From: Arctopsyche grandis
Taxonomy: Eukaryota; Arthropoda; Insecta; Trichoptera; Hydropsychidae
DNA length: 64,000 nucleotides
Reading direction: 5' to 3'
NCBI RefSeq assembly: GCF_051622035.1
Contig: NC_135364.1
Span: forward strand, 22,958,501 to 23,022,500
The stretch's first letter is position 1. Each line of letters opens with the position of its first letter. Below, one piece after another: positions 37,577 to 59,235 of this stretch. The notes beneath the pieces are model-generated. The model made no database searches. It saw only the letters and a program-made list of their open reading frames with translations, and had not been told where the DNA came from. A program made the position numbers and the translations under genes.

Positions 37577-39698
37577 TTATTTTAAAATTTCAATGTTACC
37601 TCCATTTCCATTTCCACTGCCGTTTATTCCTGTGCCTCCATTTCCACCTCCCTTTATATTGCCAATGTTACCTCCATTTCCACTTACACTGCTGTACGAA
37701 TATAATCCTATGCCTCCATTTCCACCTTCCTTTATATTGCCAATGTTACCTCCATTTCCATTTCCACTGCCCTTTACTCCTATGCCTCCATTTCCACCTC
37801 CCGTTACGTGGCCAATGTTACCTCCATGTCCATTTCCACCGCCGTTTACTCCACTGCCTCCATTTCCACCTCCTATTATATTACCAATATTTCCTCCATT
37901 TCCATTTCCACTACCGTATACTCCATAGCCTCCATTTCCACCTCCCGTTACGTGGCCAATGTTACCTCCATGTCCATTTCCACTACCGATTACTCCATAT
38001 CCTCCATTTCCACCTCCCTCTACAGAGCCAATATTTCCTCCATTTCCATTTCCACTAATGGCTACTCCATAGCCTCCATTTCCACCTCCTTTTATAGAGC
38101 CAATGTTACCTCCATATCCAATTCCGCTGTTTCCACTTCCACCTCCCGTTACAGAGCCAATGTTTCCTCCATTTCCATGTCCACTACCGATTACTCCAGA
38201 GCCTCCATTTCCACCTCCCATTATAGAGACAATGTTACCTCCATTTCGAATTCCATTGTTTGCATTTCCACCTCCCTTTACAGAGCCAATGTTTCCTCCA
38301 TTTCCATTTCCACTCCCGTGTACCATGCTGCCTCCATTCACTCCAGTGCCAGCGTTCCCTTTTTGTCTATGTCTATGTTTCACTCTAGTGCTTCCATTTC
38401 CACCATTTTTATGGCCTGCGTTATTAATTCCTCCAATATATATGTTTCCTCCATTCCCATTTCCGCCACCATATGTTCCACTGCCTCCATTTCCACCACC
38501 CATAAAATATGAATAGATTTTTCTTCTTCCATTTTTATCAGTCACTCCATTGCCAATGTTTCCTTCATTTCCATCATTTATGCTTCTTGCTTCACTGATC
38601 ACATTTACACTATGTCTACCAAGTAATCCGATCTCTCCATTTCGGCCAAGTCTACCAAGTACCCCTGTACCTCCATTTCCACCTCCTATTACAGAGCCAA
38701 TATTACCTCCGTTTCCACTTCCATTATTTTCTACTTCAGTGCCTCCGTTTCCACCTCCAATTACACAGCCAATGTTTCCTCCATTTCCATCACTTTTTCC
38801 ATTCAATCCAGTACCACCATTTCCACCTGCAAGTATATCGCCTATACTTTCGCTATTTCCTTCTTCAGACCCGTTATTTCCACCTCCTGATAAAGTGCCA
38901 ATGTTTCCTCCATGTCCACCATTTTGACCTCCAAGTTCAACGCAATTTTTTATTTTATTCCCATGATTTATAACAACCTGTTTTTCATCGTCACCAATTA
39001 CAATGCTTTCTTCAGTTCCATCGTTGCCACCATCGTGCTTAAGATCGTTGGTTGAAATGGCTGGTAGAATTCTCTAAAAAAAATGTCCATGTATATTAAT
39101 AAAAGTGTAATTGTTATAATTCATTATTCATTTTTTTTATATTGTAGCTAGATTTGTGGGAGAGGAAGGGGATGCTTATTTATTAGAACCGTTACAAAAT
39201 AAAAACTAATAATTGGCAAAGTATAACAGATCAAGTCAACAGTTATATATGCTCTCATGGAGAAAGTCGAATACATTTTTTGATTCTGACTAGGGTTAAA
39301 GCCTAAGCATGGTAATCAATCTGACTACATATGTACATATAATATGAATGAAAAGCTTGAAATTTGGGATTGAAAGGCCAGTACAAATATACGCCAGTGC
39401 AGCGCTGGGCAAATTTATTTATCATTTATTGCTAAAGTAGAAATATAATTACTTGTAATACTGACAAATTATTTTTTGATAGGAATCCGAGGTTTTTTTT
39501 CCAACTTACATAAAAAAATATCCGGTTTTCTGGAACACACCGGCTAGTTATTTATAAAATGATCGACTAACATGCACTGTATTCTATTTGTTCTTTAAAA
39601 ATTTTGTCGTATAAAAATACATATAATATTAGTTAAATAAGTATCATTCAAATTACCTGCGCCAAACACAGAGCAAGTAGCAATCCTACAAGTTTCAT
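37577..39698 (-). CDS. GRP-A: secreted Gly/Asn-rich repeat protein
   Basis: Two-exon gene. Exon 1 (39,657-39,698) encodes the 14-residue signal sequence [14 protein letters not shown] and ends at a GTAATT donor. Exon 2 (37,577-39,073) follows a T-rich TTTTTTTAG acceptor; the intron is 583 nt, phase 0. The product is 512 residues. The mature N-terminus R-I-L-P-A-I-S-T-N matches the [10 protein letters not shown] of B and C. After an acidic linker (D-D-E-K-Q) comes a ~400-residue array of roughly 20-24-residue units of the type GGGNGGxGVxGSGNGNGGNI with hydrophobic I-G-x-V/I spacers; it ends N-I-E-I-L-K. Very Gly/Asn/Ser-rich and almost Cys-free. Unlike B-D it lacks regularly spaced Lys-Arg sites, having only isolated basic clusters (R-R-K, H-R-H-R-Q-K). 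The long open plus-strand frames opposite it are repeat artefacts. Function unknown: structural or silk-like, glue, or antimicrobial are all possible. Confidence 0.85.
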
Positions 39699-39870
39699 CT
39701 TGGGTTTTGGAACCTTATTGAAAAAACTATGTCGTATTTATACGGAATTTCCACCGTTTGATCTTTTACACAGGTTCCAAGTGGAGAGGGAAAATCAATA
39801 TTTTTATCGATATAATTGAATTAGATTGATATTTGTATTTGCGTGAATAATTTTATGCAAATTGCAATCG
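39696..39870 (-). promoter_or_regulatory. Promoter of GRP-A (TATA plus POU octamer)
   Basis: On the minus strand, TATAAATAC lies at 39,734-39,742, so transcription should start about 13 nt before the ATG at 39,698. Farther up are the shared element around CCAAGTGGAGAGGGAAAATC (39,777-39,796) and the octamer ATTTGCAT (39,855-39,862). The layout is shared with the four paralogous promoters. Confidence 0.7.
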
Positions 39871-40070
39871 TATACGTGTTTGGATTCTATTCGTTTTCTA
39901 ACCGAGCCATTTAGATCAGCGTACTTCCAGGGTGCGTGCATTTATTAGTTCCAAAAAAAATCTGTAACGTAAAAAATATCTTTATTATTTGATTAATTGA
40001 ATATTTAAAAGCATTCAATAGAAAATTAACTGTATATATTCATAATATAAATGAGTACTATTTAAATTAC

Positions 40071-40156
40071 CTTCACCGAGCACAGAGTAAGCAGTAATGC
40101 TACAAGCTTCATCTTAGGTTTTGATATCTCGATGGAAAAAATGTATGGTATTTATA
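40071..40156 (-). pseudogene. Orphan promoter and signal-peptide exon of the GRP family
   Basis: A fifth copy of the family's first exon (40,071-40,112) encodes MKLVALLLTLCSVK and ends at the same GTAATT donor, with TATAAATAC at 40,148-40,156 (complement of gtatttata). Upstream sequence to about 40,345 is also homologous to the other promoters, but the octamer position reads GCGCAAAT (plus strand). No second exon lies between it and GRP-A exon 1. Either it is the remnant of a deleted gene, or it is an alternative first exon for GRP-A: both donors are phase 0, so splicing to 39,073 would keep the frame and only swap the signal peptide. Confidence 0.7.
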
Positions 40157-41139
40157 CGAAATTGTCACAATTTGTTGTATTTTATCAAGGCTCCAAATGG
40201 AAAGGGAAAATCGATTTTTAAGTCTATAAAACTAAATAAAATTGCTATTTTTATATGCATGAACAATTTTGCGCAAATAGCATTTGGTACTAAACGTGTA
40301 CATATTTGGATTGTGGTCGTTTTCTAATCGAGCCATTTAGACCAGCGTTTCCGAACCGAAATTACACGTAATCCCATTTTAATCATTTTTTGTGACCGTT
40401 TCGTGAATTGATAACTACACTGAGTAACAAAAAAAATTACCACTTACACGAAAACCATGTGAACTGTATAAGAGGTATGTAAAAATAACGTTTGTTACTT
40501 ACTGGAGTGGAGACTAATCAAATGTGCAGTTGCATAAGGCATAGCATCAAGTGCATAAGGATATGTATGGGGACAAAAAAGTTTACATCAAGGGTACAGT
40601 TATTGGATATAGCCTGCAAAAGGGTCAAAACCAGTTAGCAGTTACTGATTAAGACGGAACGAATTTGTGCATTGAAAGGCTTCAATATTTCATTTTATCA
40701 TCACATTATCACCGTAAAATTTTCAATAACACGTTATGTACATATATAATTATTAATATACTTGAACGATAGATATATTTTTTTAAATAAATACTTTATA
40801 CTATAGATTACTAGTGTTTTAACCCGGTTTCGCTTGGTATTTGTAATATAATCCACTTAAACATGGTCAATTTAATAATAAACATTGTATTTAAATTTAC
40901 TTGAATATTCGTTTTTTTTATTAAATTGAACGTCACGGATATTACGAACTAAAACAAACAAACATACATACAAAGTTTCAAAAGTATATATTAAGATTAT
41001 TTTTTAAAAAAATGCATTACTCCGTACATATGTATGTAGATAAACTAAAAATTAACTGCAGAAGTTTTGGATTTGCCCATTTAACGCATACGGTGATAAA
41101 AATACCTAAATAAAAATCAAAAACTTGAAATAACTTCCG

Positions 41140-41320
41140 TTTGACTGTACATTTCTAATCCATAGATGTCTCTATGGGATAATTAATTAATTAATTAATG
41201 GTTAATTTCGTTTACGTAATAAAAAAAATGCTGCAGCGTTTGCAATTGGCGAGGAAGGCACATTGGGTTTTACCTGTAAGGCTTTCCTGGTATATAATCT
41301 ATTTAAGTAAAATAAAATAA
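41140..41320 (+). mobile_element. SINE family 1, 3' half, within the duplicated block of GRP-B
   Basis: Contains CATAGATGTCTCTATGGGAT, TTAATTAATTAATGGTTAAT and the hairpin GAGGAAGGC...GGCTTTCCTGG; head and central domain are missing. The sequence directly downstream (GTATATAATCTATTTAAGTA and on to 41,640) matches the sequence downstream of the SINE at 54,759-55,135, so both descend from one insertion that was duplicated with the gene block. Confidence 0.75.
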
Positions 41321-42825
41321 AATAATACATATATGTCTTTCCTTCCTTTTCATTACAATTTTTAATATAGAAATGCAGCTTTTTTCAATGAAAATCTTTG
41401 AGAGAGATTGTATGAGCTCCATTAATTAATAATTATTTGAAACAGTAAAAACAACAAAACATAAAGGAAGCAGAAATATTTAGTGACCCTGCCGAAGGAG
41501 AAGTTCCATAATTAATAATAAAAAATTTGAAGGAGCGCTCAGAAATCGAGCCGATTTTCTGTTTTTATTACAATCGTTTGAGTTCTGGTTCTGATTTTGG
41601 CAGCAATCTCACTGAATACTATCTCAAGCTTCCCTTAGACGATGTTTGGAATAAAATACGCAAAATCTGCACTTTCGAAAACTATTAATGGAACTCCACC
41701 AGGAATTAACTTTTCCATTTCCAAAACTAGAAGGTGATCTTCTACGCATGCTGAAAAAATAAGTAGACAGCGAACGACCCCTCATAGTTGGGAACTTTTC
41801 TAGTTTTCAAGATTAAAATTTCAGATTTTGTAAACTGTGCGTAAGCAATATATATGTTCTTTGCAATTTATTTTTATATTTACTTCACAGATATATTTAC
41901 CTCAACCGGAAGTGGCACTTTTACTCTAGAGAATCAAGCTTTATTATGAATTTCTCAAAAAACTTTCAGTGTATTGAACAGAAAATTTGTAGCTAGGTAT
42001 TAAGTTTAAACTTAATACCAAGTTATGTATAAAATTCAGTGAAGACCGGTTGACCAGTGGCAGTGGTAGTTTACTTCTGTGCTCTTTGCGAGAAATTTCC
42101 AGTATAATTCTTGAATTAATGCTATGCAATGTGATTAAAAAAACAAGTTTGATGAAATGAAATTTTATCCTCTCAGAAAATTCAGAAATTTTGTGAACAT
42201 ACGATTTTTACTTTATTTTCCATGTTACTAAACGTATCAAGGTGAAAATTTATATTTGTATTCTATATGTACTCATAAGATTTTGTACAGAATTCATAAG
42301 CCGGTAGTAATTTTTAAGTTTTTTTTAAAACAATATTTCAGTGTTTTATTTGTATAATATTTATGGTGGTAAGTTTTAATTGTAAGTTTTTTTTTAATTT
42401 AAATTTCATCCGCACAATGCGGCACAATTTGGCTAGATTGTATGATTTTCGTAAAATTAATCTGCTAATTTCGCAGTTGACGCTTTAGGTCAGAAACAGG
42501 GGTCAGGACAAAAAATTTAAATTACATGAAAAACATTTCCTAAGCTTTGAAATAGATTTGTGTGCTATTTTTTTAAGCCTATGTTCGTTTTTTTACAGAA
42601 AAATAGTAAGTTATTTAATGTATGATGAAATGTATTGCAGTTACTAAAAGTAAACGTGACATCTTATTATGATGAACAAAAACACAACATTTCAACCAAA
42701 TTATTTTAATTGAATTTTTGAAAAGCGTACATCAATTTATTTAAATGTAATAAAACGGATTAAAGTGTTATTTTGCAGTTTTTTGTTAGTTTCTATGCTT
42801 ACTTAGTATCAGCGTTTTAATTATT
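41321..42825. repeat. Duplicated 3'-flanking block of GRP-B
   Basis: Collinear with 47,780-49,350 (GRP-C) and 55,135-56,832 (GRP-D). Shared landmarks include GGAACTCCACCA, TTTTCCATTTCCAAAACTAG, AAGTAGACAGCGAACGACCC, the CAACCGGAAGTG block and GTAAACGTGACATCTTAT. Relative to C and D, about 280 bp containing most of the conserved 63-codon ORF are missing near 41,760. AATAAA (complement at 42,736-42,741) lies 85 nt after the stop codon and probably ends the GRP-B mRNA. Confidence 0.8.
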
Positions 42826-44904
42826 TTAACCACGTGCAGCTATAGCTACACTGCCAGTAATTTCTTCAGTGGAGGTTTCTCCCACTTCTTCACCTCCTAC
42901 AGTACCATGGTTTCCTCCTTTTCCTTTTTTAATATTGATCAAACCACTGATATTAGGTAGGTTGACAATAGGTGGTAAAATGGGGTGTATACCAGGGAGT
43001 AAGGGATGAAGAATGTTTTTACCATCATTATCATGAACTTGTACGTTTCCTCCTTGTCCATTCCCACTACCATTGGTTCCACTGCCTCGATTTCCACCTC
43101 CTTTTACATTGCCAGCGTTAATTTGTCTTTTCTGAGCTCTACCAAGGTGAACGTTTCCTCCGCTTCCATTCCCACTGCCATCCTGTCCACTGCCTCCATT
43201 TCCACCTCCTTCTAAATTTCCAGCGTTAGTTTGTCTTTTTTGAGCTCTACCAAGGTGAACGTTTCCTCCGCTTCCATTCCCACTGCCATCCTGTCCACTG
43301 CCTCCATTTCCACCTCCTTCTAAATTGCCAGCGTTAGTTTGTCTTTTTTGAGCTCTACCAAGGTGAACGTTTCTTCCGCTTCCATTCCCACTGCCATCGC
43401 GTCCACCGCCTCCATTTCCAGTTCCTTCCACTCGGCCAATGTCAATATCTTTTAAATGACAACTGATGTCCAAACATCTTCCTTTTGTTTCACCATTTTT
43501 ATCACCAACATGTTTCCCATCGCCATCAACAGTTCCATCGGCGCGGTTGGTTAAAGTGGCTGAATGGATTTCCTATAAATAACTTCCATGTACATATATA
43601 CATATATAGTATTTGAGAAATTTTAATAACAATGCATGATTCATATTCTCAGATAGTGTCAATTATTTCGTATATAATTTCACCAATATTGGATAGCTCA
43701 TTATATACATATGTATATATAATCAGTTATTAGCTCCAAGCAATATCATTGGGTGGGTTTCTTAAAATATTTATATAAATATTATGTATCTTCTAATATA
43801 CAATTTGGAATGAGACTTTGTATATATACATATATGACGTCATCGAACAAATGATTCGATTTTTTTTTCGATTCATAGGCGCCGATTCGAATTTTTTCGA
43901 TTCAATTGATTCAAAGTCCCCGCGGGGGGCGCAGCTTTATGGGGCTCAGCCGCATGGGGAACTGAAGGGGGCGCAGGGGGTGCAGGGTGGCGCAGCCTAA
44001 TGAAACGTTACCACATGGGGCCCCGAAGGGGGCGCAGCCGTCATCGAACAAATGATTCGATTTTTTTATAAAATATTGACATATTTATTAATATTGTTAT
44101 ATTTATTTATCTTATATTTATAAACATACATATGTATATTTTTCAATAGATGGGTTATAAGGCGTTTTGTGACATTTTGCGCTGCGTTCAAAACGAGTCT
44201 CGAGCTCGGTTTCCCATGAGGGTTGTTATTATTTTCTACTTTTTGAAACTTTATTAAAATAATACTAATTTGAGATGTACTTACTTATGATAATTTTAAT
44301 GAATTTAAGATATAATCAATTGGAAAAACATGAAAAAAAAAAATTAAATGTATTGCAAAACATTCAGTTGTTGGTTTGAATCTAAATTTTTTAATGAAAT
44401 TTCATTTACTTTGATTAGTTAGATTTGAAATTAGCATTTAGGATATATAGTTCCAAGGGTTTCTTAAAATATGGTTATCCGTCTATTTATGTACATACAA
44501 ATTCGTTTTTTTAATACGAACATTGTGGTTTTTAACAATCAAAAAATCCAGATTAGCTAAATTTGCGAGAAGGGAAGAGGATGCTTATTCGTTGGAACCG
44601 TCACAACATTCAAAATAAAAATATAAATTGTCAAAGTATAACAGCACATAATCTAGCCAATATGAATATATGCCCTCATCGAGAATTTCAAAATAAATTT
44701 TTCAATTCCGGCTAGGATTTGATCATATGATTGGTAATCAATTTATGACTTGAAAGGCTTTGTGTCTAGGGTTGAAAAGTACCCAAAACGTCAAGCAAAT
44801 AAATTTTTCCAGTATTATTTAGGAAGTTGTTAAATTATGTTAAATAACAAAGTTTATATTACCTGTGCCAAGCACAAAGCAAGCAGTAACCCTACAAGCT
44901 TCAT
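42826..44904 (-). CDS. GRP-B: secreted Gly-rich protein with Lys-Arg-bounded repeats
   Basis: Exon 1 (44,863-44,904) encodes [14 protein letters not shown]. Exon 2 (42,826-43,572) begins after TTTATAG. The intron is 1,290 nt, phase 0, and the protein 262 residues. The mature N-terminus E-I-H-S-A-T-L-T-N is followed by an Asp-rich linker and a unique segment with two cysteines (C-L-D-I-S-C). Then come units of 36 residues reading [36 protein letters not shown]; there are three Lys-Arg junctions. The C-terminal region is Pro-rich (H-P-I-L-P-P-I), then K-G-K-G-G-N-H-G, and ends A-I-A-A-R-G. Regular dibasic sites suggest processing into Gly-rich peptides, but cleavage is an inference. The shortest family member. 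Confidence 0.85.
43839..44067. repeat. 28-bp direct repeat flanking a GC-rich insert in the GRP-B intron
   Basis: GTCATCGAACAAATGATTCG followed by ATTTTTTT occurs at 43,839 and again at 44,040. The 172 bases between are rich in GGGGCGCAGC-like motifs and have a composition unlike the AT-rich intron. GRP-C and D introns lack it, so it arrived after the duplications. Confidence 0.7.
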
Positions 44905-45085
44905 ATTGAGATTTGACATCTCGATGGAAAAACTATGCCGTATTTATACGGAATTTTCACTGATTGGTATTTCACGCAGGTACCAAGTGGAGAGGGAAAA
45001 TCGATTGTGTAATCGATAAAATTGAATTAAATTGTTATTTTTATATGCATGCATAATTTTATGCAAATTGAATTTGTTACTAATC
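44902..45085 (-). promoter_or_regulatory. Promoter of GRP-B (TATA plus POU octamer)
   Basis: TATAAATAC is the complement of 44,940-44,948. The shared CCAAGTGGAGAGGGAAAATC element is at 44,983-45,002. The octamer ATTTGCAT is the complement of 45,061-45,068, 121 bp above TATA. Confidence 0.7.
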
Positions 45086-45620
45086 GTATACGTATTTGGA
45101 TTATAAAACTATAAAATACTCAGCAACAAAAAGTCACGTTGTTCACTTACATGAGCACAACTAATCAATTTTAACTAATGTTTACATATTGAAATCGAAT
45201 TTGACATCGATATTTGATGCTTTATTGCCGTTTGTGAGATAACAGCGTTTAAAATTGCACAATTTTTACATATGTTTGTAATTTATAATAATTTTGTATT
45301 AAAATATACATAAATAGTATTGCTGTGCAAAAGTGAAAATTGGACTCAATAGGCAGATGTTTTCATTGATTGATTGTATTTTTTATAATTAATTATTAAT
45401 TTATTTATTGATTGATTGTGTTTTTTGAACTATAATTCATTATCTAAGAATTTTATAAATTTAAAATATATATTTTTTTACACATACATATTTTTACTTT
45501 ATCTATGTACGTAGTAACAATAGATGAATTTTCATGCGAAAATTCGAACTCGAGATTTTTACCGATTCGAAATTAGAATTGTAGGAATTAATATAAATGA
45601 TTATAATTGATGTATAATAA

Positions 45621-46004
45621 TGTTACGTACGCCGCGGATTGAGCGAATTGCACTTAAACCAACGAATATCTGTTATCGGATTAACTAAATGCATGCACTT
45701 ACTTCCAAAGATTATATCTGGACTCTAAGTGCATTTAGGCTAAACAATGACCGTTATTAGTTATTTCTCAGAATCGGTACGGGAAGACCCAATGTCTTGG
45801 AAATACATATCCGAATACGTGACTATACAACAGGTAAACAGATTAGGCGTCCTGAGAGATCTACCCTTCATAAGGTGGTACGTAGGCGATATAATTCATT
45901 CTGGACTCAGCAGTGACACTGCGTGTATCTCCTGAATCATCAATAAATGCTGTGAAACGACTGTTGGCCTTTTACTTGGATCCTCCACCCACCCCTACGC
46001 AACA
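45621..46004 (+). mobile_element. Solo LTR, copy 2
   Basis: Same termini as copy 1 (TGTTACGTACGCCGCGG ... CCCACCCCTACGCAACA), with ATAA on both sides. At 384 bp it is 56 bp shorter because the early direct repeat is single here. It contains GGCGATATAATTCATTCTGG and a potential AATAAA (45,940). Solo LTR; the small ORF 45747-45935 is not a gene. Confidence 0.8.
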
Positions 46005-46280
46005 ATAATGTGAGTGATGTTGAACGGTTGTTGCACGTGAGTGCTATAGTGTTAAGAGTTGGTACCCCAACCGCCGGGCCAATGCGGGTGAACTGTGATT
46101 GGTCGGCAGTGTCGGGCAGTATCGAGGTATCAGCGTGGCCGAGTCAGTGCGCATCATGTTCGAAGCGCGATAGAGTATTGGATCAGATGTACATATGTAT
46201 ATTCATATACGAAGAATAAAAGACTTGCTGTAAAGTCGCCTATCATTTCTCCCTCTTCACGATCTTCCCTTACATGGAAT
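46005..46280 (+). other. GC-richer segment adjoining the solo LTR, possibly another LTR fragment
   Basis: Begins TGTGAGTGATGTTGAACGG at 46,009 and reaches ...CTTACA near 46,274, with AATAAA at 46,215. This is LTR-like, but I see no matching target duplication or second copy in the window. Low certainty. Confidence 0.3.
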
Positions 46281-46349
46281 CCCCACGTTTTCATGATCTA
46301 TGTAGAAACAATGTGTGTGTGGCTGTATATTTTGGGGAGTTTTTGAATA

Positions 46350-47300: not shown

Positions 47301-47779
47301 ACCATCATACATTTATTGGATTAGTTATATATTTCACTACGTTTAAAAATTTACAATTATTTGTTTATTTCATCTGAGTGTACTGATTCAAGCGGTAATT
47401 GATTTTGTACCGACTTTAATTTTCAAAACAATAACAGGAAAATAAAAAAAACGGTAGATTTTCTGTAAATAACGCATCCCCCGGACTAAAACCTATTGCA
47501 ATCGCGGCCCGCTTTGTATGGGGATATTTGAGCCAAACGGCGATTTTGAATTCTACTTAAGCAGTCAAAACTTATCACGATTGACCCAAATACTACACTT
47601 CAATAGGTGAATATAAAGCACTTATTTTTTTTAAATAGTAGAAAATTCAAAACCCTTATCAAAAAAGAGAAATATGAAAAGGTTGTGGCTATTTGCAGGT
47701 ACTATATCAGCGACAGGCGCAAAACCTTCATACACATTGTGTATATAATAACTTCGTACACATTGTGTATAAAATTAGT
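47301..47779. other. AT-rich stretch without gene
   Basis: No supported feature apart from a direct repeat of CACATTGTGTATA near 47,735 and 47,759. Confidence 0.4.
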
Positions 47780-49350
47780 AGGTAGGTACATGTATTGCTT
47801 TTATAGCAATGTTTGGAATAAAATAAGCAAAAAATGCACTTTCAAAAACTATTTATGGAACTCCACCAAGAAATAACTTTTCCATTTCCAAAACTAGCAT
47901 CACCTTTAACCTTTATTACCATGTGGTGCTCACTGTACATGGACTATTATATTTTTATTTGTATTTATTATGTTTTGTCTTACTATACTGCTTTCTTGTT
48001 TATATATTATTCCGTATGTGTGCCAATTTAAATAAAATAAAATAAAACGCATGCTGAAAAAATAAAGTAAATCGAGAAATACCCCAGTTCGCAAAGAGCC
48101 AAGTTGTATTCTCGAACTCGCACCCAAAACGTTTCTCTGACGTTTTTGGTTTTAGTTTTTCCGCGCAAAAACTTTCACCAGTCGAGTAGAGTCGGTCGAG
48201 TAATAAGTCCTTGTTATTCCATTAGGTTGGCCCGGTATCAAAATTTCCCGCACCACTTCAGCAAATTCCGTTTCCTATATTTCTTTTGCATTAAGGGATG
48301 GCCGGGCAACCGAGAGGGATGAATATTTACGACGAGCCCTTGCCGACACTAAGTAGACAGCGAACGACCCCTCAAAGTTGGCAAATTTTCTGGTTCCCAG
48401 GATTAACATTGGCTTCACCTGCTCACCCCGAAAGGTTTGTCATGTGCCACACCATTGGCACATTCATATTTCGTCCTATCAAATTTTAAAAATGAACTGA
48501 TTTTGAAACTGTGCGTAAGCACATGTACATATGTATGTTCTTTGCAAATTTTGCAAATATATTTTTACCTCAACCGTAGGTAGCACTTGTACTCTAGAGA
48601 ATCAAGGTTTATTATGTTTTTCTCAAAAAACTTTAAGTGTATTGAATCGAAATTTTGTAGCTTGGTATTCAGTTTAAAATTAATACCAAGTAACCCATAA
48701 AATTCAGTGAAGACCCGTTGAACGGAAGCAGTTTACTCCCGTTCAATTTATCTTCCACTATTTTTTCAACCCTTTAATGTGTGCGTTGAGACATTTCATT
48801 AAAGGTTTTAGATTAATGTCATGAAATATGATTAAAAATCAATAAGTTTGATGAAATGGAATTTTATCCTATAATTTAGAAAATTCGAAAATGTTGTGAC
48901 CATACGATTTTTTTTCCATATTACTAAACGTATCAAGGTGAAAATTTGTATTCTATATATACTAACTTAGAGTTAATAAGGTTTTGTATAGAATTCGTAA
49001 ACCGGTAGTAGTAATTTGTTTTTAAAACAATATTTCAGTGTTTTATTTTTATAATATTTATGGTAGCAGTGAGTTGTAATTGTGTGTGTTAATTTTTTAT
49101 GCCCATGTACCCTTTCTTCACAGAAAAATAGTAAGTTCTTTAATGTATGATGAAATGTATTGAAGTTACTAAAAGTAAACGTGACATCTTATCATGATGA
49201 ACAAAAACACAACGTTTTAACCAAATTATTTTAATTATATTTTTGGAAAGCTTACATCAATTTATTGAAATGTAATAAAACGGATTAAAGTGTTATTTAG
49301 CAGTTTTTTGTTAGTTTCTATGCTAACTTTGTATCCGTGTTTTAATTATT
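47780..49350. repeat. Duplicated 3'-flanking block of GRP-C
   Basis: Collinear and nearly identical with 55,510-56,832 downstream of GRP-D. About 150 bp (47,895-48,048) ending in an A-rich TAAAATAAAA tail are inserted between AAAACTAGCATC and ACGCATGCTGAAAAAATAAA relative to D, so a retroposon fragment inserted after the split. AATAAA for GRP-C is the complement of 49,261-49,266, again 85 nt past the stop. Confidence 0.8.
48298..48489 (+). CDS. Conserved 63-codon ORF of unknown nature in the duplicated block (copy 1)
   Basis: The frame begins M-A-G-Q-P-R-G-M-N-I-Y-D-E and ends I-F-R-P-I-K-F. The copy at 55,883-56,074 differs at two residues (P/L at 5, T/S at 17). Upstream there is a CpG-containing leader with CCAGTCGAGTAGAGTCGGTC and GGTTGGCCCGGTATC, both conserved. 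It may be a fragment of a real gene carried by the duplication, a tiny gene or a transposon remnant. I do not recognise the protein. It is on the strand opposite to the GRP genes. Confidence 0.35.
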   Translation: MAGQPRGMNIYDEPLPTLSRQRTTPQSWQIFWFPGLTLASPAHPERFVMCHTIGTFIFRPIKF

Positions 49351-50467
49351 TTAACCACGTGCAGCTATGGCTACATTGCCAGAAAGTTCTTCCGTGGAGG
49401 TTTCTCCCACTTCTTCACCTCCTACAGTACCATGGTTTCCTCCTTTTCCTTTTTGATTATTTATCAAACCACTGTTATTAGGTAGGTTGATAAAAGGTGG
49501 TAAAATGGGGTATATACCAGGGTGTAAGGGATGAAGAATGTGTTTACCATCATTATCATGAACTTGTACGTTTCCTCCTTGTCCATTCCCACTCCCATCG
49601 GTTCCACTGCCTCCATTTCCACCTGCTAAAACATTTCCAAGATTAGTTTCTCTTTTTTGAGTTTTACCAACTTTAATGTTTCCTCCGCTTCCATTCCCAC
49701 TCCCATGGCTTCCACTGCCTCCATTTCCACCTGCTTCAGCATTGCCAAGGGTAGTACCTCTTTTTTGAGTTCTACCAACTTGAATGTTTCCTCCGCTTCC
49801 ATTCCCACTCCCGTGGCTTCCACTGCCTCCATTTCCACCTGCTTCAGCATTGCCAACGCTAGTATCTCTTTTTTGAGTTCTAGTAACTACTACGTTTCCT
49901 CCTTGTCCATTCCCACTGCCATATTGTCCACTGCCTCCACTTCCACCTCCTTTTATATTGCCAGCGTTAGTTTGTCTTTTTTGAGCTCTACCAATTTCAA
50001 CGTTTCCTCCGCTTCCATTCCCACTGCCATCCTGTCCACTGCCTCCATTTCCACCTCCTTCTAAATTGCCAGCGTTAGTTTGTCTTTTTTGAGCTCTACC
50101 AAGGTGAATGTTACCTCCGCTTCCATTCCCACTGCCATCCTGTCCACTGCCTCCATTTCCACCTCCTTCTAAATTGCCAGCGTTAATTTGTCTTTTTTGA
50201 GCTCTACCAAGGTGAACGTTTCCTCCGCTTCCATTCCCACTGCCATCGCGTCCACTGCCTCCATTTCCAGTTCCTTCCACTCGGCCAATGTCAATATCTT
50301 TTAAATGACAACTGATGTCCAAACATCTTCCCTTTTTATCACCAACGTGTTTCCCATCGCCATCAACAGTTCCATCGGCGCCGTTGGTTAAAGTGGCTGA
50401 ATGGATTCCCTATAAATAATTTCCATGTATATATATATATATATATATATATCATTCCATTTCCATG

Positions 50468-50558
<91 letters not shown>

Positions 50559-51636
50559 TCATATATGTATAGTATGTGGGAAATTTTAATAACAATGCAT
50601 GATTCATCTTCTCATATAGTAATAAATATATTAATTAATTTACTTTTAAATCCAATTTAACATAATTTTTTTTTCTAAATTAACTTTCCAATAAATCTTT
50701 TAATTGTAACTCATAAATTTCTTAATTATTAACTGTATCTTGATTTGATCTAATTTTATTGTCAATTATTTCGTATATAATTTCACCAATAGTGATAGCT
50801 TATTATATACATATGAATATATAATCAGTTATTAGCTCCAAACAATATCATTGGGTGGGTTTCTTAAAATATTAATATAAATATTATTTTTATATATATA
50901 TTATTTAATTCATTTAATAGAAAATCTGTTATAAATATGAAATAAATAGGCGCAATCCTTTATCATATGATATTTAAATCCTTTAAAATAAAACTAACTT
51001 GAGATATCCTTACTTTAACAATGATAATTTTAATGAATTTAAGATAAAATCAATCGAAAAAACACGAATAAAAAAAAAATTATTGCAAACCATATCAGTT
51101 TAACGGCTTGAATACCCGCTAAATTTTTTAATGAAATTTCAATAACGTTGATTAGTTAGATTTGAAATTAGCATTTGGGATACATATTTCCAAGGGTTTC
51201 TTAAAATATAGCTATCCATCTATTTATGTACATACAATTTTTTTCAATACGAACATTTTGGTTTGTAACAATCAACAAATGCAGTTTAGCTAAATATGCG
51301 AGAAGGGAAGAGGATGATTATTCGTTGGAACTGTCACAACATTCAAAATAAAAAGATAAATTGTCAAAGTATAACAGCACTTAATCTAGCCAATATGAAT
51401 ATTTGTATGTATGCCTTTATCGAGAATTTCAGAATAAATTTTTCAATTCCGGCTAGGATTTGATTGGTAATCAATTTGAGACTTGAAAGGCTTTGTGTCT
51501 AGGATTGAAAAGTACCCAAACGTCAAGCAAATATATTTTTCCAGTATTATTTAGGAAGTTATTAAATTATGTTAAATAACAAAGTTTATATTACCTGTGC
51601 CAAGCACAAAGCAAGCAGTAATCCTACAAGCTTCAT
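49351..51636 (-). CDS. GRP-C: secreted Gly-rich protein with six Lys-Arg junctions
   Basis: Exon 1 (51,595-51,636) encodes [14 protein letters not shown]. Exon 2 (49,351-50,409) starts after TTTATAG with G-I-H-S-A-T-L-T-N. The intron is 1,185 nt and phase 0; the protein is 366 residues. The Asp-rich linker is four residues shorter than in B. C-L-D-I-S-C-H is retained. Successive units of about 36 residues carry a constant core [19 protein letters not shown]. Their starts vary: K-R-Q-I-N-A-G, K-R-Q-T-N-A-G (twice), K-R-D-T-S-V-G, K-R-G-T-T-L-G and K-R-E-T-N-L-G. The C-terminus is Pro/His-rich ([13 protein letters not shown]) and ends A-I-A-A-R-G. The unit number differs from B (6 vs 3 junctions), as expected for repeat slippage or unequal crossing-over. 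Confidence 0.87.
50430..50560. repeat. (AT)n microsatellite in the GRP-C intron
   Basis: Over 100 bases of nearly pure TA dinucleotide, interrupted by CATTCCATTTCCATG and ATGTATAT. The GRP-B intron has only a short ACATATATACATATATAG at the same place (about 43,591), so the expansion is specific to C. Confidence 0.9.
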
Positions 51637-51815
51637 CTTGAGATTTGACATCTCGATGGAAAAACTATGTCGTATTTATACGGAATTTTCACTGATTGGT
51701 ATTTCACGCAGGTACCAAGTGGAGAGGAAAAATCGATTGAGTAATCGATAAAATTGAATTAAAATGTTATTTTTATATGCACGCATAATTTTATGCAAAT
51801 TGAATTTGTTACTAA
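51634..51815 (-). promoter_or_regulatory. Promoter of GRP-C (TATA plus POU octamer)
   Basis: TATAAATAC is the complement of 51,672-51,680. The CCAAGTGGAGAGG element is at 51,715-51,727. The octamer ATTTGCAT is the complement of 51,793-51,800, 121 bp above TATA. Nearly identical to the GRP-B promoter. Confidence 0.7.
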
Positions 51816-52599
51816 TACGTATATGGATTTCAAAACTATAAAATACTGATAACACTCAGCAACAAAAAGTCACGGTGTTCGCTTACATGAGCACAACTAA
51901 TCAATTATAACTAATGTTGACATATTGAATTCGAATATGACATTGATTTTTGATGCTTTATTGGCCGTTTGTGAGCTAACAGCGTTTAAAATTGTACAAT
52001 TTTTACATATTTTTGTATTTTATAATAATTTTATATTTTAATATACATAAATAGTATTGCTGTGCTAAAAGTGAAAATTGGACTCAATAGCCAGATGTTT
52101 TCATTGATTTGATTGTATTTTTATAATTAATTATTAATTTATTTAATGATCGATTATGTTTTTTTAACTATAATTCATTATCTAAGAATTTTATAAATCA
52201 AAAATATAATTTTTTTACACATACATATTTTTACTTTATCTATGTACGAAGTAACAATAGATGAAGTTTTGTGATCATGCAAAAATTCGAACGAGATTTT
52301 GACTGATAGGAATCGATCACTGATCACGTTTTCATGAAACAATGTTTGTGTTGCTGTGTATTTTGGGGAAGTTTTTGAACACTGCTATCGAACTGAAACT
52401 TAGTATCAGTTACTGAAATTCTTATCGATACGACGTAAATTTTTTTCAAATTTTTAAGTTCACCGGAAATGGTACCTCCCCTTATAGGTGTCCTCTTTTT
52501 TTAAGTTTTTGAATTCAATTATCTCCCTAGCCGCTAACTTAATCCGACTGAATTTTTTTTACTTGTAATTTTACTTGTGTTTATAATTTGAAGAAATTA

Positions 52600-52860
52600 T
52601 GCACAGAAATTTGAAATCTATAGATGTCTCTATAATTTCGTGTTTATTATGTGTATAAAAATTGTAATAATAATTGTGCACAAAATCTAAAAATAATCCA
52701 TATGATGTATCTATGATTATTATTTCTTTACTTGATTAATTATTGTATTCGATGCTTATTGAACGTACTGTATACGTTGTCTGACCGTTCTCGCACACTC
52801 GTCGCATTGGAGCGATTTGTAATGACGAGTGTACATTTATTGAAATAAAAATAAAATAAA
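52600..52860 (+). mobile_element. SINE family 2 remnant
   Basis: Contains ATAGATGTCTCTATAATTTC and the tail GCACACTCGTCGCATTGGAG, GACGAGTGTACATTTATTG, leading into an A-rich tail that has become the minisatellite that follows. Head and central domain are absent. Confidence 0.6.
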
Positions 52861-53174
52861 AATAAAATAAAAATAAAATAAAAATAAAATAAAAATAAAA
52901 TAAAAATAAAATAAAAATAAAATAAAAATAAAATAAAAATAAAATAAAAATAAAATAAAAATAAAATAAAAATAAAATAAAAATAAAATAAAAATAAAAT
53001 AAAAATAAAATAAAAATAAAATAAAAATAAAATAAAAATAAAATAAAAATAAAATAAAAATAAAATAAAAATAAAATAAAAATAAAATAAAAATAAAATA
53101 AAAATAAAATAAAAATAAAATAAAAATAAAATAAAAATAAAATAAAAATAAAATAAAAATAAAATAAAAATAAA
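52845..53174. repeat. 11-bp minisatellite (AAAATAAAAAT)n, about 30 copies
   Basis: Roughly 330 bases of alternating AAAAT and AAAAAT blocks, an 11-bp period with almost no variants. Because 11 is not a multiple of 3 but 33 is, the minus strand stays open and yields an 11-residue Phe/Tyr/Ile/Leu repeat (52736-53269). That ORF is an artefact. The array grew from the A-rich tail of the adjacent SINE family 2 copy. Confidence 0.95.
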
Positions 53175-53669
53175 TGAACCTTCAGAATCTCCTTTGTAGT
53201 GTATAGTTTTACAAAGCGTCTTGTTAATTTAGTTTTAGCTTGTTCTGCTACAGCTTTCCGGAAATGCATACAACAAACCCTAAAAATTCCATCGTAATCT
53301 GTTGAATGTTTTGGGAGCCTTTTATATTTAAATGTATGAAATGGTAGTTTCCTACTTTACCTATCAATAAACACACTGGTAATGTAAATGTTACTTTGTT
53401 TTTTTGTTTGTTATAGTCCAGTCAAATTAGCAATCAACCTCAAAATGATAGATAATAAGCAAATTTTCTTATATACCTTTATTTTGGCGTTCTAAAAGTT
53501 GTCTCAAAAGTCTCATTGAATCTATTGTATAAGTCGTAAGTTATTCAAGGTCAAAGGTAAAAAAAAACAGTTTTTTGCGATTATCTCAGCTTTTATTGCT
53601 CCAATGATGTTAATATTCATAATAAAAATTGTAGAACATAAAATTTTCGACAAATTTTATTTGAAACAT
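53175..53669. other. Non-coding stretch, probable transposon flank
   Basis: The phrase GCATACAACAAA..CT.AAA.TTCCATCGTAATC occurs at about 53,267 and again at 54,683, on both sides of the broken gene below. It is a direct repeat and may mark the ends of a transposon. Confidence 0.4.
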
Positions 53670-53673
53670 TTTT

Positions 53674-54545
53674 TCATGCGCTCAACCGTTTTTGCGAAAG
53701 AGGGCGGTGAGTACATACATACATACCGTAATGCAAAGTCAACCGTGAATATCTGTGGCTTTCTAGAACTTCAGGGTCAAATGAACTCTCTTCCTCACAG
53801 TCACTTTGCAATGAAACAGCATTGAGGCAAGCTTGCCCATTACACTGGCCACAAGCTAAAGTGCATTGCAACCCCGATATTCTAAACCCGCACCGTGTAC
53901 CACATCCATTCTTACAATTAAAAAAAATAGAGTATTAAGTAATTCATCGGGAGCTGGTAGTAGTATTGTTGTCGTTGGCTCCAGGAATTTATTTTGGAGC
54001 ACCCAGCCCCATTCCTGGGGTTCTAAATCACGCCCTAACCATTTTTGAACTTGGTAATAGACACGGATTATATGCTGATGGGCTGTTTGTCTTGTACTTG
54101 TCGGTGGAAGATTAGATAACTGGACAGGTTTATGAAGTTTTGTAGATTTAATGAACTGAGTATATCGAAGATGATCGATATTATCCTCAGATTTTGGAGC
54201 ATTGTATGTATATCGAATTCCATTTTCATATAATTGTTAGACAGGGCAGATTTTTTGTAGAAAAACTTGAGCTAGTTCGTCGAAATTGATGTTTTCCTAG
54301 TGATTTGATGAAAGTTTTTTTCCTATTTCAAACAGCGCAGAAGTTGTATCACATCCACCGAATGCATGTAAAAATAAAATATGTTTTTTAGAAAGGGGAT
54401 ATTTGTCAAAACTTTTTGAAGAATAGATTTGTTTTGACATTGCCTTTGCCCAATTTTTTAAAGAAAATGTCTTCTTGATGTAATTTAGTACGTCCAATTA
54501 AAATAACTAGTAAATCTATGTCTTCTCCTATAATATGTAAAATTT
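53674..54545 (-). pseudogene. Broken transposon-associated gene of the 'HAFGGCDTTSA' family
   Basis: Minus-strand frames, joined only by frameshifts, show conserved blocks in the right order. First G-E-D-I-D-L-L-V-I-L-I near 54,525; then I-L-F-L-H-A-F-G-G-C-D-T-T-S-A-L-F near 54,330-54,380; then L-R-Y-T-Q-F near 54,160; then L-P-P-T-S-T and the block R-V-Y-Y-Q-V-Q-K-W-L-G, E-W-G-W near 54,000-54,100; then a Cys-rich segment N-C-K-N-G-C-G-T-R-C-G, C-T-L-A-C-G-Q-C-N-G-Q-A-C-L-N near 53,830-53,920. This pattern is widespread in uncharacterised multicopy proteins of invertebrates and is probably transposon-borne. At least two frameshifts disable it. The upstream N-terminal part is absent. The molecular function of the family is not known to me with certainty. 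Confidence 0.75.
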
Positions 54546-54758
54546 TATTAAATACAATGTATTAACTGATAAATAATACAAATAATCAAAATTCAAGGTA
54601 GTGTTGAATTTGATGTGTGAATGACACTTATTCCCGTTTTTTCCCGTTTCCATTCCCGTTTTCATAGTAATCTTCCCGGACATGCATACAACAAATCCTG
54701 AAAGTTCCATCGTAATCGGTTCAGTGGTTTAGGAGGTTTGTATAAAATTCATAATATA

Positions 54759-55135
54759 GCCAGCAGTATCGCTCGGTGGTTGCGTTTATGTTAATCATCG
54801 AGGGGTTACCGGGTTCGATCCCGTGCTAATCTTTAATGCCACTGGTCATTTTATAAATTATTTGATTTCATTGTTGAAACGGTTGCTCAATCAAAAACTA
54901 TCCTAACCACTATGTCACAAATATCTGAATTTGATTTATGTAGAATATCTAAAAAAAATTGTACAAGTCTAAATTCATAGACCTCGCTATGGATTAATTA
55001 ATTAATGGTTAGTTTCGTGTTCTTCAGCATCTCAAAATTTAACGATTTATGTAATAAAAATGCTGCAATGTTTGTAATTGGCTAGGAAGGCACATTGGGA
55101 TTTACCTGTAAGGCTTTCCTGGTATATAATCTATG
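54759..55135 (+). mobile_element. SINE family 1, plus strand, shared with the GRP-B block
   Basis: Head TAGCCAGCAGTATCGCTCGG, B box GGGTTCGATCCCG at about 54,811, a shortened central domain, then TTGTTGAAACGGTTGC, and the hairpin GGCTAGGAAGGC...GGCTTTCCTGG near 55,079-55,120. Its mutated right arm (GGCTTTCCTGG) and the sequence that follows also occur at 41,280-41,330, showing common descent by duplication. Confidence 0.85.
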
Positions 55136-56832
55136 TAAGTAAAATGAAATAAAATAATACATTCATATATGTACATATGTCTAATTCCTTTTCATTAAAA
55201 TTTTTAATTTAAAAATGAAGTTTTTTCAATGAAAATCTTCGGGAGAGATTGTAAGAGCTCTTTTGATTAATAATAACTTGAAATAATAAAAACATCATGG
55301 TTGAAGTTACATATATGGATAATGTAATGGAACCAGAAATATATAGTGACCTTGCTCCATAAATAATTATAACAAATTTGAAGGTGCGCTCAGTAATCGT
55401 TTGAATATTGGGTTCTGATTTAGGCAGCAATCTCACTGGATAAGATCTCAAGCTTCCTGTAGACGATGATATACATACATATGTATATAACATTAAATAA
55501 ATAGGTAGGTGTATGAATTGCTTTTATAGAAATGCTTGGAATAAAATACGCAAAAAATGCACTTTCGAAAACTATTTATGGAACTCCACCAAGAAATAAC
55601 TTTTCCATTTCCAAAACTAGCATCGTCTTCAACGCATGCTGAAAAAATAAAGTAAATCGAAAAATACCCCAGTTCACAAAGAGTCAAGTCATATTCTCGA
55701 ACTGGCACCCAAAACATTTCTATGACGTTTTCGCTTTTAGTTTTTCCGCGAAAAAACTTTCACCAGTCGAGTAGAGTCGGTCGAGTAATAAGTCCTTGTT
55801 ATTCCATTAGGTTGGCCCGGTATCAAAATTTCCCGTACCACTTCAGCGAGTTCCGTTTCCTATATTTCTTTTGCATTAAGGGATGGCCGGGCAACTGAGA
55901 GGGATGAATATTTACGACGAGCCCTTGCCGTCACTAAGTAGACAGCGAACGACCCCTCAAAGTTGGCAAATTTTCTGGTTCCCAGGATTAACATTGGCTT
56001 CACCTGCTCACCCCGAAAGGTTTGTCATGTGCCACACCATTGGCACATTCATATTTCGTCCTATCAAATTTTAAAAATGAACTGATTTTTGAAACTGTGC
56101 ACATGTACATATGTATGTTCTTTGCAAATTTTGCAAATATATTTTTACCTCAACCGGAGGTAGAACTTTAACTCAAGAGAATCAATGTTTATTATGTTTT
56201 TCTCAAAAAACTTTAAGTGTATTGAATCGAAATTTTGTAGCTTGGTATTCAGTTTAAAATTAATACCAAGTTACGCATAAAATTCAGTGAAGACCCGTTG
56301 AACGGAAGCAGTTTACTCCCGTTCAATTTATCTTCCATTATTTTTTCAACCCTTTAATGTGTGCGTTGAGACATTTCATTAATGGTTTTGGATTAATGTC
56401 ATGAAATATGATTAAAAATCAACAAGTTTGATGAAATGGAATTTTATCCTGTAATTTAGAAACTTCGAAAATGTTGTGACCATACGATTTTTTTTCCATA
56501 TTACTAAACGTATCAAGGTGAAAATTTGTATTCTATATATACTAACTTAGAGTTAATAAGGTTTTGTATAGAATTCGTAAACCGGTAGTAGTAATTTGTT
56601 TTCAGAAAAATAGTAAGTTCTTTAATGTATGATGAAATGTATTGAAGTTACTAAAAGTAAACGTGACATCTTATCATGATGAACAAAAACACAACGTTTT
56701 AACCAAATTATTTTAATTATATTTTTGGAAAGCTTACATCAATTTATTGAAATGTAATAAAACGGATTAAAGTGTTATTTAGCAGTTTTTTGTTAGTTTC
56801 TATGCTAACTTTGTATCCGTGTTTTAATTATT
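55136..56832. repeat. Duplicated 3'-flanking block of GRP-D
   Basis: Matches 41,310-42,825 (B) and 47,780-49,350 (C). The 5' part (55,136-55,500) is shared only with B; 55,510-56,832 is close to C. About 110 bp (GTTTTTAAAACAATATTTC onward) present in C near 49,018-49,125 are missing at about 56,600. AATAAA for GRP-D is the complement of 56,743-56,748. Confidence 0.8.
55883..56074 (+). CDS. Conserved 63-codon ORF of unknown nature (copy 2)
   Basis: Same frame as 48,298-48,489, starting M-A-G-Q-L-R-G-M-N-I-Y-D-E. Only two residues differ over 63 and the leader is also conserved, but the whole flanking block is similarly conserved, so this alone does not prove selection on the protein. No recognised domain. 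Confidence 0.35.
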   Translation: MAGQLRGMNIYDEPLPSLSRQRTTPQSWQIFWFPGLTLASPAHPERFVMCHTIGTFIFRPIKF

Positions 56833-59044
56833 TTAACCACGTGCAGCTATGGCTACATTGCCAGAAAGTTCTTCCGTGGAGGTTTCTCCCACTTCTTCAC
56901 CTCCTACAGTACCATGGTTTCCTCCTTTTCCTTTATTATTGATCATACCACTGTTGATAATAGGTGGTAAAATGGGGTATATACCAGGGTGTAAGGGATG
57001 AAGAATGTGTTTACCATCATTATCATGAACTTGTACGTTTCCTCCTTGTCCATTCCCACTCCCATTGGTTCCCCTGCCTCCATTTCCACCTGCTAAAACA
57101 TTTCCAAGGGTAGTTTCTCTTTTTTGAGTTTTACCAACTTTAATGTTTCCTCCGCTTCCATTCCCACTCCCATCGGTTCCACTGTCTCCATTTCCACCTG
57201 CTAAAACATTTCCAAGGGTAGTACCTCTTTTTTGAGTTCTACCAACTTGAATGTTTCCTCCGCTTCCATTCCCACTCCCATGGCTTCCACTGCCTCCATT
57301 TCCACTTGCTTCAGCATTGCCAACGCTAGTATCTCTTTTTTGAGTTTTAGTAACTACTACGTTTCCTCCTTGTCCATTCCCACTGCCATATTGTCCACTG
57401 CCTCCACTTCCACCTCCTTTAATATTGCCAACGCTAGTTCTTTTTCCATGTCCACAACCACGACTGTTTTTTCCGCTTCCATTCCCACTGTGATCGACAC
57501 TACCTACGTGTGTGTGCTTTCCATGTGTGTGCACATGTCCAGAGCATCCATTATCGCCATTTTCGGTTGTTGTTTCATCAGTTTTATCACCTCCCCCAGT
57601 CCCAGTGCTTCCTTCCGTGTTTTCACCTTCTCCACTGCCACCTTCATCTCCTCCAGTGCCATCGTCTCCGCCTACGCTTTCCTCAGTTACTCCGCCTACT
57701 AGGTCGGCCACATTAAAAGGTCCCGTCATAATACCAGGGTTATTTATATCACGTTTATGAACTCCTCCAGTACCTGTTACTCCAGTACCACCACTGCGGT
57801 GCATAGCACCTCCTAAGATTCCCTGAAAAAATACCCCACACAGATTTGATATCTAGAATTTATGCTTAATTTTCATATTGCATATAAATAATATAAATTT
57901 TACAGGTGAAATCATTAACTAAAAGTAGAGATCACGTTATATAAATTTAATGTGATATACAAATCAATTTCATATAAATAAATTTTGAATACTATTTTAT
58001 GTCACCCTCACTTTAACCGTATAAGCATTTTTAGAGTCTAGGATCGTTAAAATTCTATACAAAAATTCCCAAACAACTCCGGGTAAATGCTTTTTTTGAT
58101 ATGTTTTTAGTTGTTTACATTAAGAATCATTCTAAGATCTTTCCCCCAACTTTATATATGTATATACAAAATCGAGTGGTCTAGAGAGCATTCCTATACG
58201 CTGACAGGGGTCTACGTGACGAGACAGAATGTTAAATTACAGAAAACACAAATATCGGAAGGCAAAGATCGAAAATCGAAAGATCTTAAGTTGAAAGATC
58301 AAAAAAAAAATGGCGCATGGTAAACGGTACATACTCATTTAATTTGCGCGAGCAGGATACAACAGGAACAAGAGGAACAGGCTTTTCCCCCCGTATTAAT
58401 GTGCGCGCGCAGAAGTGAGTATGTACGTGAGTATGTACTGTTTACCATGCACCATTTTTTTTGATCTTTTGACTTAAGATCTTTCGATTTTCGATCTTTG
58501 CCTTACGATATTTGCGTTTTCTGTAATTTAACATTCTGTCTCGTCACGGAGACCGACGCTGACAGAGCCCAGAAGTGTCTGGTTTTACAGGACAGAGCCA
58601 GATAGCTATTAATACAATGATCGACTAGCGTGCAAAATATTCTTATTGTTCTTGAATAGTTTTCTAAATTAAAAAAAAAAAACAATTTAAATGAAACATA
58701 AAAAAATATGTAAATACATATATATATATATTTTTTTTATATATTGTTTGCTAGGAAATTCTTCTAATGATTGAATGTCACCATGTGAGATATATCTGTT
58801 CACTTTTTATTTTTAAATTTCACAATCAATAGAAGAGTGTAATCAAAATTATATTCATATGTTCATATATATAGAGAATAATTGCTCATTGAATCAACTG
58901 TCAATTAAGAGGAATCAGAAAGATTAACAAAATTTTTCCAAATTACATGAAAATTTTTGGTAAAATTCGTTACAATATAAAAATAAATTTAAAAACAATT
59001 ACCTGCACAAAGCACAGCACAAGTAGTAGTCCTACGAACTTCAT
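56833..59044 (-). CDS. GRP-D: divergent secreted Gly-rich protein with acidic and His-rich N-terminal region
   Basis: Exon 1 (59,003-59,044) encodes MKFVGLLLVLCFVQ. Exon 2 (56,833-57,822) follows TTTTTTCAG. The intron is 1,180 nt and phase 0; the protein is 343 residues. The mature N-terminus (G-I-L-G-G-A-M-H-R) differs from B and C. An early V-H-K-R site is followed by a Gly/Glu/Asp-rich acidic stretch, then a His-rich segment (H-V-H-T-H-G-K-H-T-H), then C-G-H-G-K-R. The remaining half matches GRP-C: units beginning T-S-V-G-N, D-T-S-V-G-N, G-T-T-L-G-N and E-T-T-L-G-N, each after Lys-Arg, and the same C-terminus ending A-I-A-A-R-G. About five Lys-Arg sites in all. The chimeric layout (new N-half, shared C-half) suggests recombination between paralogues or old divergence followed by conversion of the 3' half. 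Confidence 0.86.
58208..58555. mobile_element. Complete foldback element with long inverted repeats in the GRP-D intron
   Basis: The 348-bp element is flanked by ACGCTGACAG (58,198-58,207 and 58,556-58,565), a 10-bp target duplication. Its terminal inverted repeats are about 135 bp and begin GGGTCTACGTGACGAGAC on the left; the right end complement begins GGTCTCCGTGACGAGAC after one base. They enclose a ~85-bp core. Long TIRs with 9-10 bp duplications fit the Mutator-like superfamily. No ORF. A one-armed relative is at 597-807. Confidence 0.8.
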
Positions 59045-59235
59045 CTTGGTTTTTGATAACTCGATGGAAAAACTGTGTCGTATTTATACTGAATTTTCCC
59101 CGTTTGTAGCGCTTCATGTACATATGTAGGCTAAAATGAAGGGGAAATATCGATAATTTGATCAATAAAGTTTTATTACATTGTTTTTTTTGCATGTGCA
59201 TGAATAATTTAATGCAGATTGCATTTAGCACTCGC
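59042..59235 (-). promoter_or_regulatory. Promoter of GRP-D (TATA, variant octamer)
   Basis: TATAAATAC is the complement of 59,080-59,088. The GRP element is weaker (AAAATGAAGGGGAAATATCG near 59,133). The octamer position reads ATGCAGAT on the plus strand (59,212-59,219), one mismatch from ATGCAAAT, 132 bp above TATA. Confidence 0.6.

Follow-up and report, generated by a model that had tools for sequence, protein, structure and literature searches.

A cluster of two-exon, Gly/Asn-rich, putative secreted-protein genes in the caddisfly Arctopsyche grandis as candidate silk-gland adhesives

Two-exon silk genes and the Arctopsyche cluster

The caddisfly Limnephilus lunatus is described as having 15 cadhesin (Caz) genes, which are clustered, have two exons in most cases and carry mostly Ser/Thr-rich repeats. 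Their short exon 1 encodes part of the signal peptide, exon 2 is long and often repetitive, and the account reports no conserved 3′ cysteine (PMC11092239). The published description of the pseudofibroins (Pfib) of Plectrocnemia conspersa likewise gives two exons, the first very short and encoding part of the signal peptide, and one adjacent paralogue pair (PMC9432349). Four two-exon cadhezin-like genes arranged in pairs are reported from a basal moth (PMC11906653). For the fibroin heavy chain (FibH), the description gives an exon 1 of 39–45 bp (42 bp or 14 amino acids (aa) in Bombyx), one intron of 73–5159 bp and one repeat exon (PMC11241164). Here we describe four clustered genes, A–D, in a stretch of 64,000 nucleotides (nt) of Arctopsyche grandis (contig NC_135364.1, positions 22,958,501 to 23,022,500; hereafter the window, whose own numbering is used below). 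An earlier note on this DNA had presented the cluster as its main candidate for an undescribed system. At the level of the kind of gene this is not supported: the architecture has been published for FibH, cadhesins and pseudofibroins.

All four genes lie on the minus strand and follow one plan: a TATA box, a 42-nt exon 1, a phase-0 GT-AG intron and a long repeat exon. Exon 1 comprises 14 codons in A, B, C and D and ends in CAG|GTAA; exon 2 begins after AG in frame 0. The hydrophobic core of the signal peptide was judged by eye. In these gene models the splice pairs yield open phase-0 proteins of 512, 262, 366 and 343 aa for A–D, respectively, without internal stops, and the introns measure 583 (A), 1290 (B), 1185 (C) and 1180 nt (D). 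The models agree with the four same-strand paralogues of the earlier note, with their TATA box, 42-nt exon and phase-0 intron. The junctions that it predicted (39,657/39,073, 44,863/43,572, 51,595/50,409 and 59,003/57,822) are exact to the base in the open phase-0 models, and its description of a secreted-type repeat family of uniform two-exon design, with silk or glue among the options, holds. The gene features are as follows.

39657..39698, minus strand: gene A exon 1, 14 codons, signal-peptide core; synonymous to non-synonymous changes 7:0 versus B and 6:0 versus C
37577..39073, minus strand: gene A exon 2 including the stop, 498 codons, 24-residue repeats, no KR sites
39735..39742, minus strand: TATA box of gene A, TATAAATA, beginning 44 nt before ATG
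44863..44904, minus strand: gene B exon 1 (gene model)
42826..43572, minus strand: gene B exon 2 including the stop, 248 codons; QKR ends three of its four 36-residue units
51595..51636, minus strand: gene C exon 1 (gene model)
49351..50409, minus strand: gene C exon 2 including the stop, 352 codons; QKR ends six of its seven 36-residue units
59003..59044, minus strand: gene D exon 1, MKFVGLLLVLCFVQ (gene model)
56833..57822, minus strand: gene D exon 2 including the stop, 329 codons; QKR ends three of its four 36-residue units

An AATAAA signal lies 85 nt past the stop in gene B (42736..42741, minus strand), and in C and D alike; none was found up to 400 nt after the stop of gene A. The intron of gene D contains an inverted repeat (58209–58554) with 100-nt arms that are 95% complementary and 146 nt apart. 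Related copies lie at 602–807, and the element is likely a small transposable element.

The 42-bp exon 1 and the single intron of 583–1290 bp place A–D inside the FibH ranges. However, FibH is described as mostly single-copy, with an exon 2 of 7–29 kb, conserved termini and a C-terminal cysteine, whereas the present family has four copies with coding lengths of 0.75–1.5 kb and no such cysteine. The cadhesin architecture is closer: clustering, two exons, a short signal exon, a repetitive exon 2 and the lack of a conserved 3′ cysteine are common to both. In the published account the cadhesins form two clusters on one chromosome and are mostly Ser/Thr-rich, whereas A–D occupy one locus, are Gly/Asn-rich and contain 36-residue units mostly ending in QKR. 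Pseudofibroins, as described, share the two-exon plan, and the repeats of A–D are of the GGN/GSGN type. In this comparison, the family shares the cadhesin architecture and departs from the cadhesins in composition; it would work like a cadhesin and is a possible member of that family.

Promoter block, coding constraint and the mosaic structure of gene C

The upstream regions are conserved as a block. The TATA box begins 44 nt before ATG in all five copies of the promoter and exon 1, namely A–D and a fifth copy, E (40112–40071, minus strand, 3′ end AAG|GTAA), which lies upstream of exon 1 of gene A at a distance of 372 nt. The five regions align from about 170–180 nt before ATG down to the ATG, with a mean identity of 72–81% per 40-column block; farther upstream, identity drops to 51–54%. 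The hexamer ATCGAT occurs in all five promoters, and the octamer ATTTGCAT is found at −164 in A, B and C, its exact form being missing from D and E. A strict kappa-B consensus is present in none of the five; one loose match was seen, in A. The limits of the blocks listed below are approximate.

39699..39870, minus strand: promoter block of gene A, from the five-copy alignment; upstream edge sharp
40113..40290, minus strand: promoter block of E, from the five-copy alignment
44905..45080, minus strand: promoter block of gene B, TATA box at 44941–44948
51637..51815, minus strand: promoter block of gene C, TATA box at 51673–51680
59045..59226, minus strand: promoter block of gene D, TATA box at 59081–59088
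40071..40112, minus strand: orphan exon E (MKLVALLLTLCSVK), with TATA box at 40149–40156, GT donor and conserved promoter

Thus, the count of four given in the earlier note is right for genes and one short for first exons, E having been overlooked. Compared with A, B and C in turn, exon 1 of E carries five amino-acid and two to four synonymous changes, which is near neutral. Because no exon 2 belonging to E itself was seen, E would either serve gene A as an alternative first exon or be a relic. Alternative splicing is described as relatively rare in Limnephilus silk genes (PMC11092239), which inclines us towards a relic.

The window and 240 kb of flanking sequence, 304 kb in all with 5 kb masked, contain 1061 TATAAA sites. 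Five of these are followed by a reachable ATG, an open stretch of 14 codons with nine or more hydrophobic ones, and a G|GTA or G|GTG donor falling at codon 14, criteria drawn up after the family had been seen. The five are A, B, C, D and E, all within the cluster. Synonymous to non-synonymous changes in exon 1 number 7:0 between A and B, 6:0 between A and C, 6:4 between A and D and 7:4 between B and D. From site shares, the chance of the first two ratios is 7.0e-5 and 2.7e-4, respectively, the two comparisons not being independent. Exon 1 looks coding, since such ratios are hard to obtain without coding constraint, and these substitutions show purifying selection on exon 1 in A, B and C.

In the exon 2 alignments, all five indels are multiples of 3 (324 and 12 for B–C over the whole exon; 3, 12 and 3 for C–D in the 3′ part only), versus none of the ten in the aligned part of the B–C intron and the B–C and C–D 3′ flanks (Fisher 3.3e-4). 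Open reading frame length is poor evidence by itself, since the opposite strand of the repeats is open as well. Between B and C, the non-synonymous (dN) and synonymous (dS) divergences are 0.042 and 0.057 (ratio about 0.73), with similar figures in frame-shifted controls, and in the C-terminal domain dN/dS is 0.070/0.061. The mature sequence thus appears to be under little constraint, as expected of structural repeat proteins.

Gene C combines two affinities. Between 52.3 and about 50.0 kb its region is closest to B (89–95% in the main pieces, with a gap in the intron), and between about 50.0 and 48.0 kb it is closest to D (94–96%), B being 87% and then 75% identical. The promoters of C and D are merely 73% alike. 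In 120-nt windows B gives way to D as the best match to C at about 49.9 kb; three later windows (49540, 49180 and 49060), near D deletions, favour B again. The recombinant region spans 48046–52307, with the change-over at 49.9–50.0 kb within the repeats. On the evidence of these alignments, gene C is a recombinant of B-like 5′ and D-like 3′ halves. It probably arose by unequal crossing-over or conversion, because the change-over falls in repeats. The recombinant origin of C is another point that the earlier note overlooked. Intergenic gene conversion has also been described for clustered spider silk genes (PMC9779670). A further analogue is provided by the Sp/He185/333 genes of sea urchins, for which two exons, a leader exon, a Gly-rich region, repeats and a mosaic exon 2 are described (PMC4204807). 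Their leader intron, as given there, follows nucleotide 55 of 63, their C-terminal region is His-rich and they belong to echinoderms, so that the likeness is architectural only.

Protein features, candidate function and alternatives

The four proteins are rich in Gly (37% in A, 26% in B, 29% in C and 28% in D) and contain about 9–16% Asn (16% in A) and about 10–16% Ser+Thr. Without the first 14 residues they are hydrophilic (grand average of hydropathy −0.53 to −0.86), with isoelectric points of 8.7 (A), 9.0 (B), 9.3 (C) and 6.4 (D). Gene A is built of 24-residue units of the type GGNIGSVxGGGNGGYGVxGSGNGN and has no KR anywhere. By contrast, B, C and D hold 15 units of 36 residues with a net charge of about −1.1 each, and 12 of these end in QKR; the three that do not are the last units of B, C and D, preceding the C-terminal domain. 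The sites at unit ends read [RK]-[AT]-Q-K-R. KR is also kept in a degenerate unit of D and in the N-terminal part of D, which is unique, acidic and His-containing. QKR may serve as a protease site or as a charged sticker, or it may just be homogenised sequence; its nearly identical codons among units fit this last reading. Each of A–D has two cysteines after exon 1, both outside the C-terminal domain in B–D and away from the C-terminus in A. The AIAARG terminus, which the earlier note had assigned to the family, is present in B, C and D; gene A ends differently.

49354..49569 (C), 42829–43044 (B) and 56836–57036 (D), minus strand: C-terminal domain (VQVHDNDG...AIAARG), absent from A

Neither Pfam nor NCBIfam matched any of the four repeat exons at expectation values (E-values) up to 1, and gene C, the only one compared with PDB, had no match there at E-values up to 0.1. 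In a large protein set, 7993 candidates scored against whole gene C gave none at an E-value up to 0.001, 30 candidates for its C-terminus gave none up to 1, and 7986 candidates scored against gene A gave none up to 1. A full-text literature search with Gly/Asn peptide words retrieved no insect secretion family, as far as titles and the beginnings of abstracts tell. The earlier note had not recognised the family, and we likewise found no relative of these sequences in the collections searched, whose insect coverage is uncertain. The family may therefore be new at the sequence level.

A search of the same genome (475.7 Mb in 189 contigs; match counts are lower bounds) returned at least five matches to the promoter and exon 1 cassette, all in the cluster. 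At E-values up to 0.001, genes C and D each find B, C and D, and gene A finds itself only. Gene C did not find A; therefore, equally distant paralogues elsewhere could be missed. A fibroin light chain exon is also present in this genome: the L-fibroin profile matches with 49.5 bits against a cut-off of 27 (52.3 bits with hmmscan) and has no match in any of 14 control genomes.

L007:1438–1776, contig C1, minus strand: fibroin light chain exon, L-fibroin profile match

Heavy and light fibroins are described as common to caddisfly and moth silk (PMC11092239). We consider it somewhat probable that A–D, clustered at a single locus, encode secreted structural proteins, silk-gland adhesives in type, that function as the caddisfly cadhesins and pseudofibroins do. 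In favour are the gene architecture, the tight clustering, L-fibroin in the genome, the hydrophilic proteins, the repeat turnover and the B/D chimera. Several points weigh on the other side. Cadhesins are mostly Ser/Thr-rich, unlike the Gly/Asn-rich proteins found here. The QKR that ends 12 of 15 units is unexplained by a purely structural role. No similarity to any named silk protein was detected in the collections searched, given their uncertain coverage of insects, and the N-terminus of the Bombyx heavy chain, a query run with no positive control, had no match in the genome.

The adhesive reading would build on what the DNA itself supports, namely a signal-type exon, the splice frame, a common promoter block and repeat turnover. 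The common promoter would make expression strong in a single tissue, for which the labial (silk) gland is the likeliest candidate, and the signal peptide would direct the protein to the gland lumen. There the hydrophilic Gly/Asn repeats could form a flexible or weakly beta-stacked coat, with Lys/Arg, His and acidic residues aiding adhesion to the fibre and to surfaces. If so, a Gly/Asn-rich, QKR-punctuated class joins the two-exon silk adhesives, and the recent recombinant gene C shows the diversification of a repeat gene in progress. The compact genes would also make promoter control and adhesion testable in a way that the fibroin heavy chain, given its great size, does not.

Among insects, secreted proteins that are rich in Gly and have a short signal-peptide exon are widespread, and a structural secretion from outside the silk gland, such as cuticle or eggshell, is an unlikely alternative. 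Silkworm glycine-rich proteins with signal peptides, for instance, are reported to be expressed in mouthparts (PMC4171585). However, none of the four repeat exons has a Pfam match and therefore no chitin-binding or chorion domain was seen; moreover, the closest published match in architecture and clustering that we found is to silk genes. Rather unlikely, too, is a polypeptide precursor in which B, C and D would be cut after QKR into 36-residue host-defence or other signalling peptides. The model here is Baramicin A, in which tandem peptides with a net charge near zero lie between furin sites in one precursor, according to the published account (PMC8423362). The position of QKR at all unit ends but the last of each gene, the KR retained in a degenerate unit and in the N-terminus of D, and the low unit charge are compatible with this idea. 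By contrast, the Baramicin A site is RXRR and its gene is described as immune-induced, whereas B–D lack RXRR furin sites between their units and gene A, which shares the promoter and exon 1, is devoid of KR. In addition, homogenisation by recombination explains the conserved QKR codons equally well, and the five promoters contain no strict kappa-B consensus. A combination of silk and precursor is a long shot: a recombining silk polyprotein system in which a single promoter and signal cassette would supply KR-punctuated Gly/Asn peptides. Cut at dibasic sites in the gland, these would act on the fibre as short units of cross-beta glue or of antimicrobial effect, with crossing-over within the repeats, as in gene C, making new combinations and E acting as a second promoter of A.

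That some or all copies are decaying pseudogenes without a product is very unlikely. Exon E, with its amino-acid changes and missing exon 2, and the near-neutral ratio of changes in the mature part would suit such decay. Yet A–D have no internal stops, the exon 2 alignments contain no frame-breaking indels, exon 1 of A, B and C appears to be under purifying selection, and the promoter block has been kept where sequence farther upstream has not. We regard salivary or effector proteins acting in plant or host interaction as the least likely of these explanations, despite the resemblance to the SSGP-11 genes of the Hessian fly, described as clustered, with a TATA box, a conserved promoter and one intron within the signal peptide (PMC2990301). 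The SSGP-11 proteins described there are small (103–117 aa), the word 'glycine' is absent from the main text of that paper, and the fibroin light chain in the present genome points to a silk-spinner rather than to a gall midge.

Surroundings of the cluster

P25 is known from moth silk; it was not found in this genome, the control genomes being equally empty. No family member was detected in the 240 kb of flanks (tblastn, E-values up to 1e-3), which contain two weak promoter-like stretches of 21–29 nt (E-value 0.047). On the left, the neighbours are a gene resembling amino-acid/cation transporters (AA_permease, 35.5 bits against a cut-off of 24.6) and a gene with an SMN_Tudor match of 18.9 bits, below the cut-off, which we take to be SPF30-like. 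The window contains 129 stop-to-stop frames of at least 70 aa, family frames included; 36 of the others had no Pfam match over the curated cut-off, and Rfam and tRNA searches of the window gave no match.

Repetitive DNA is present in and around the locus. Dispersed short repeat families occur at 15893–63938, D16 at eight places and D19 at seven, and are probably pieces of transposable elements. At L004:5835–8660, a 942-codon open frame that by eye resembles the endonuclease/reverse transcriptase of a long interspersed nuclear element adjoins about 5 kb reading N. A perfect 11-bp tandem array (52843–53174; 30.2 copies, 100% match) reflects a recent expansion or an assembly effect, and a satellite-like array with units of about 171–173 bp occupies 1767–3590.

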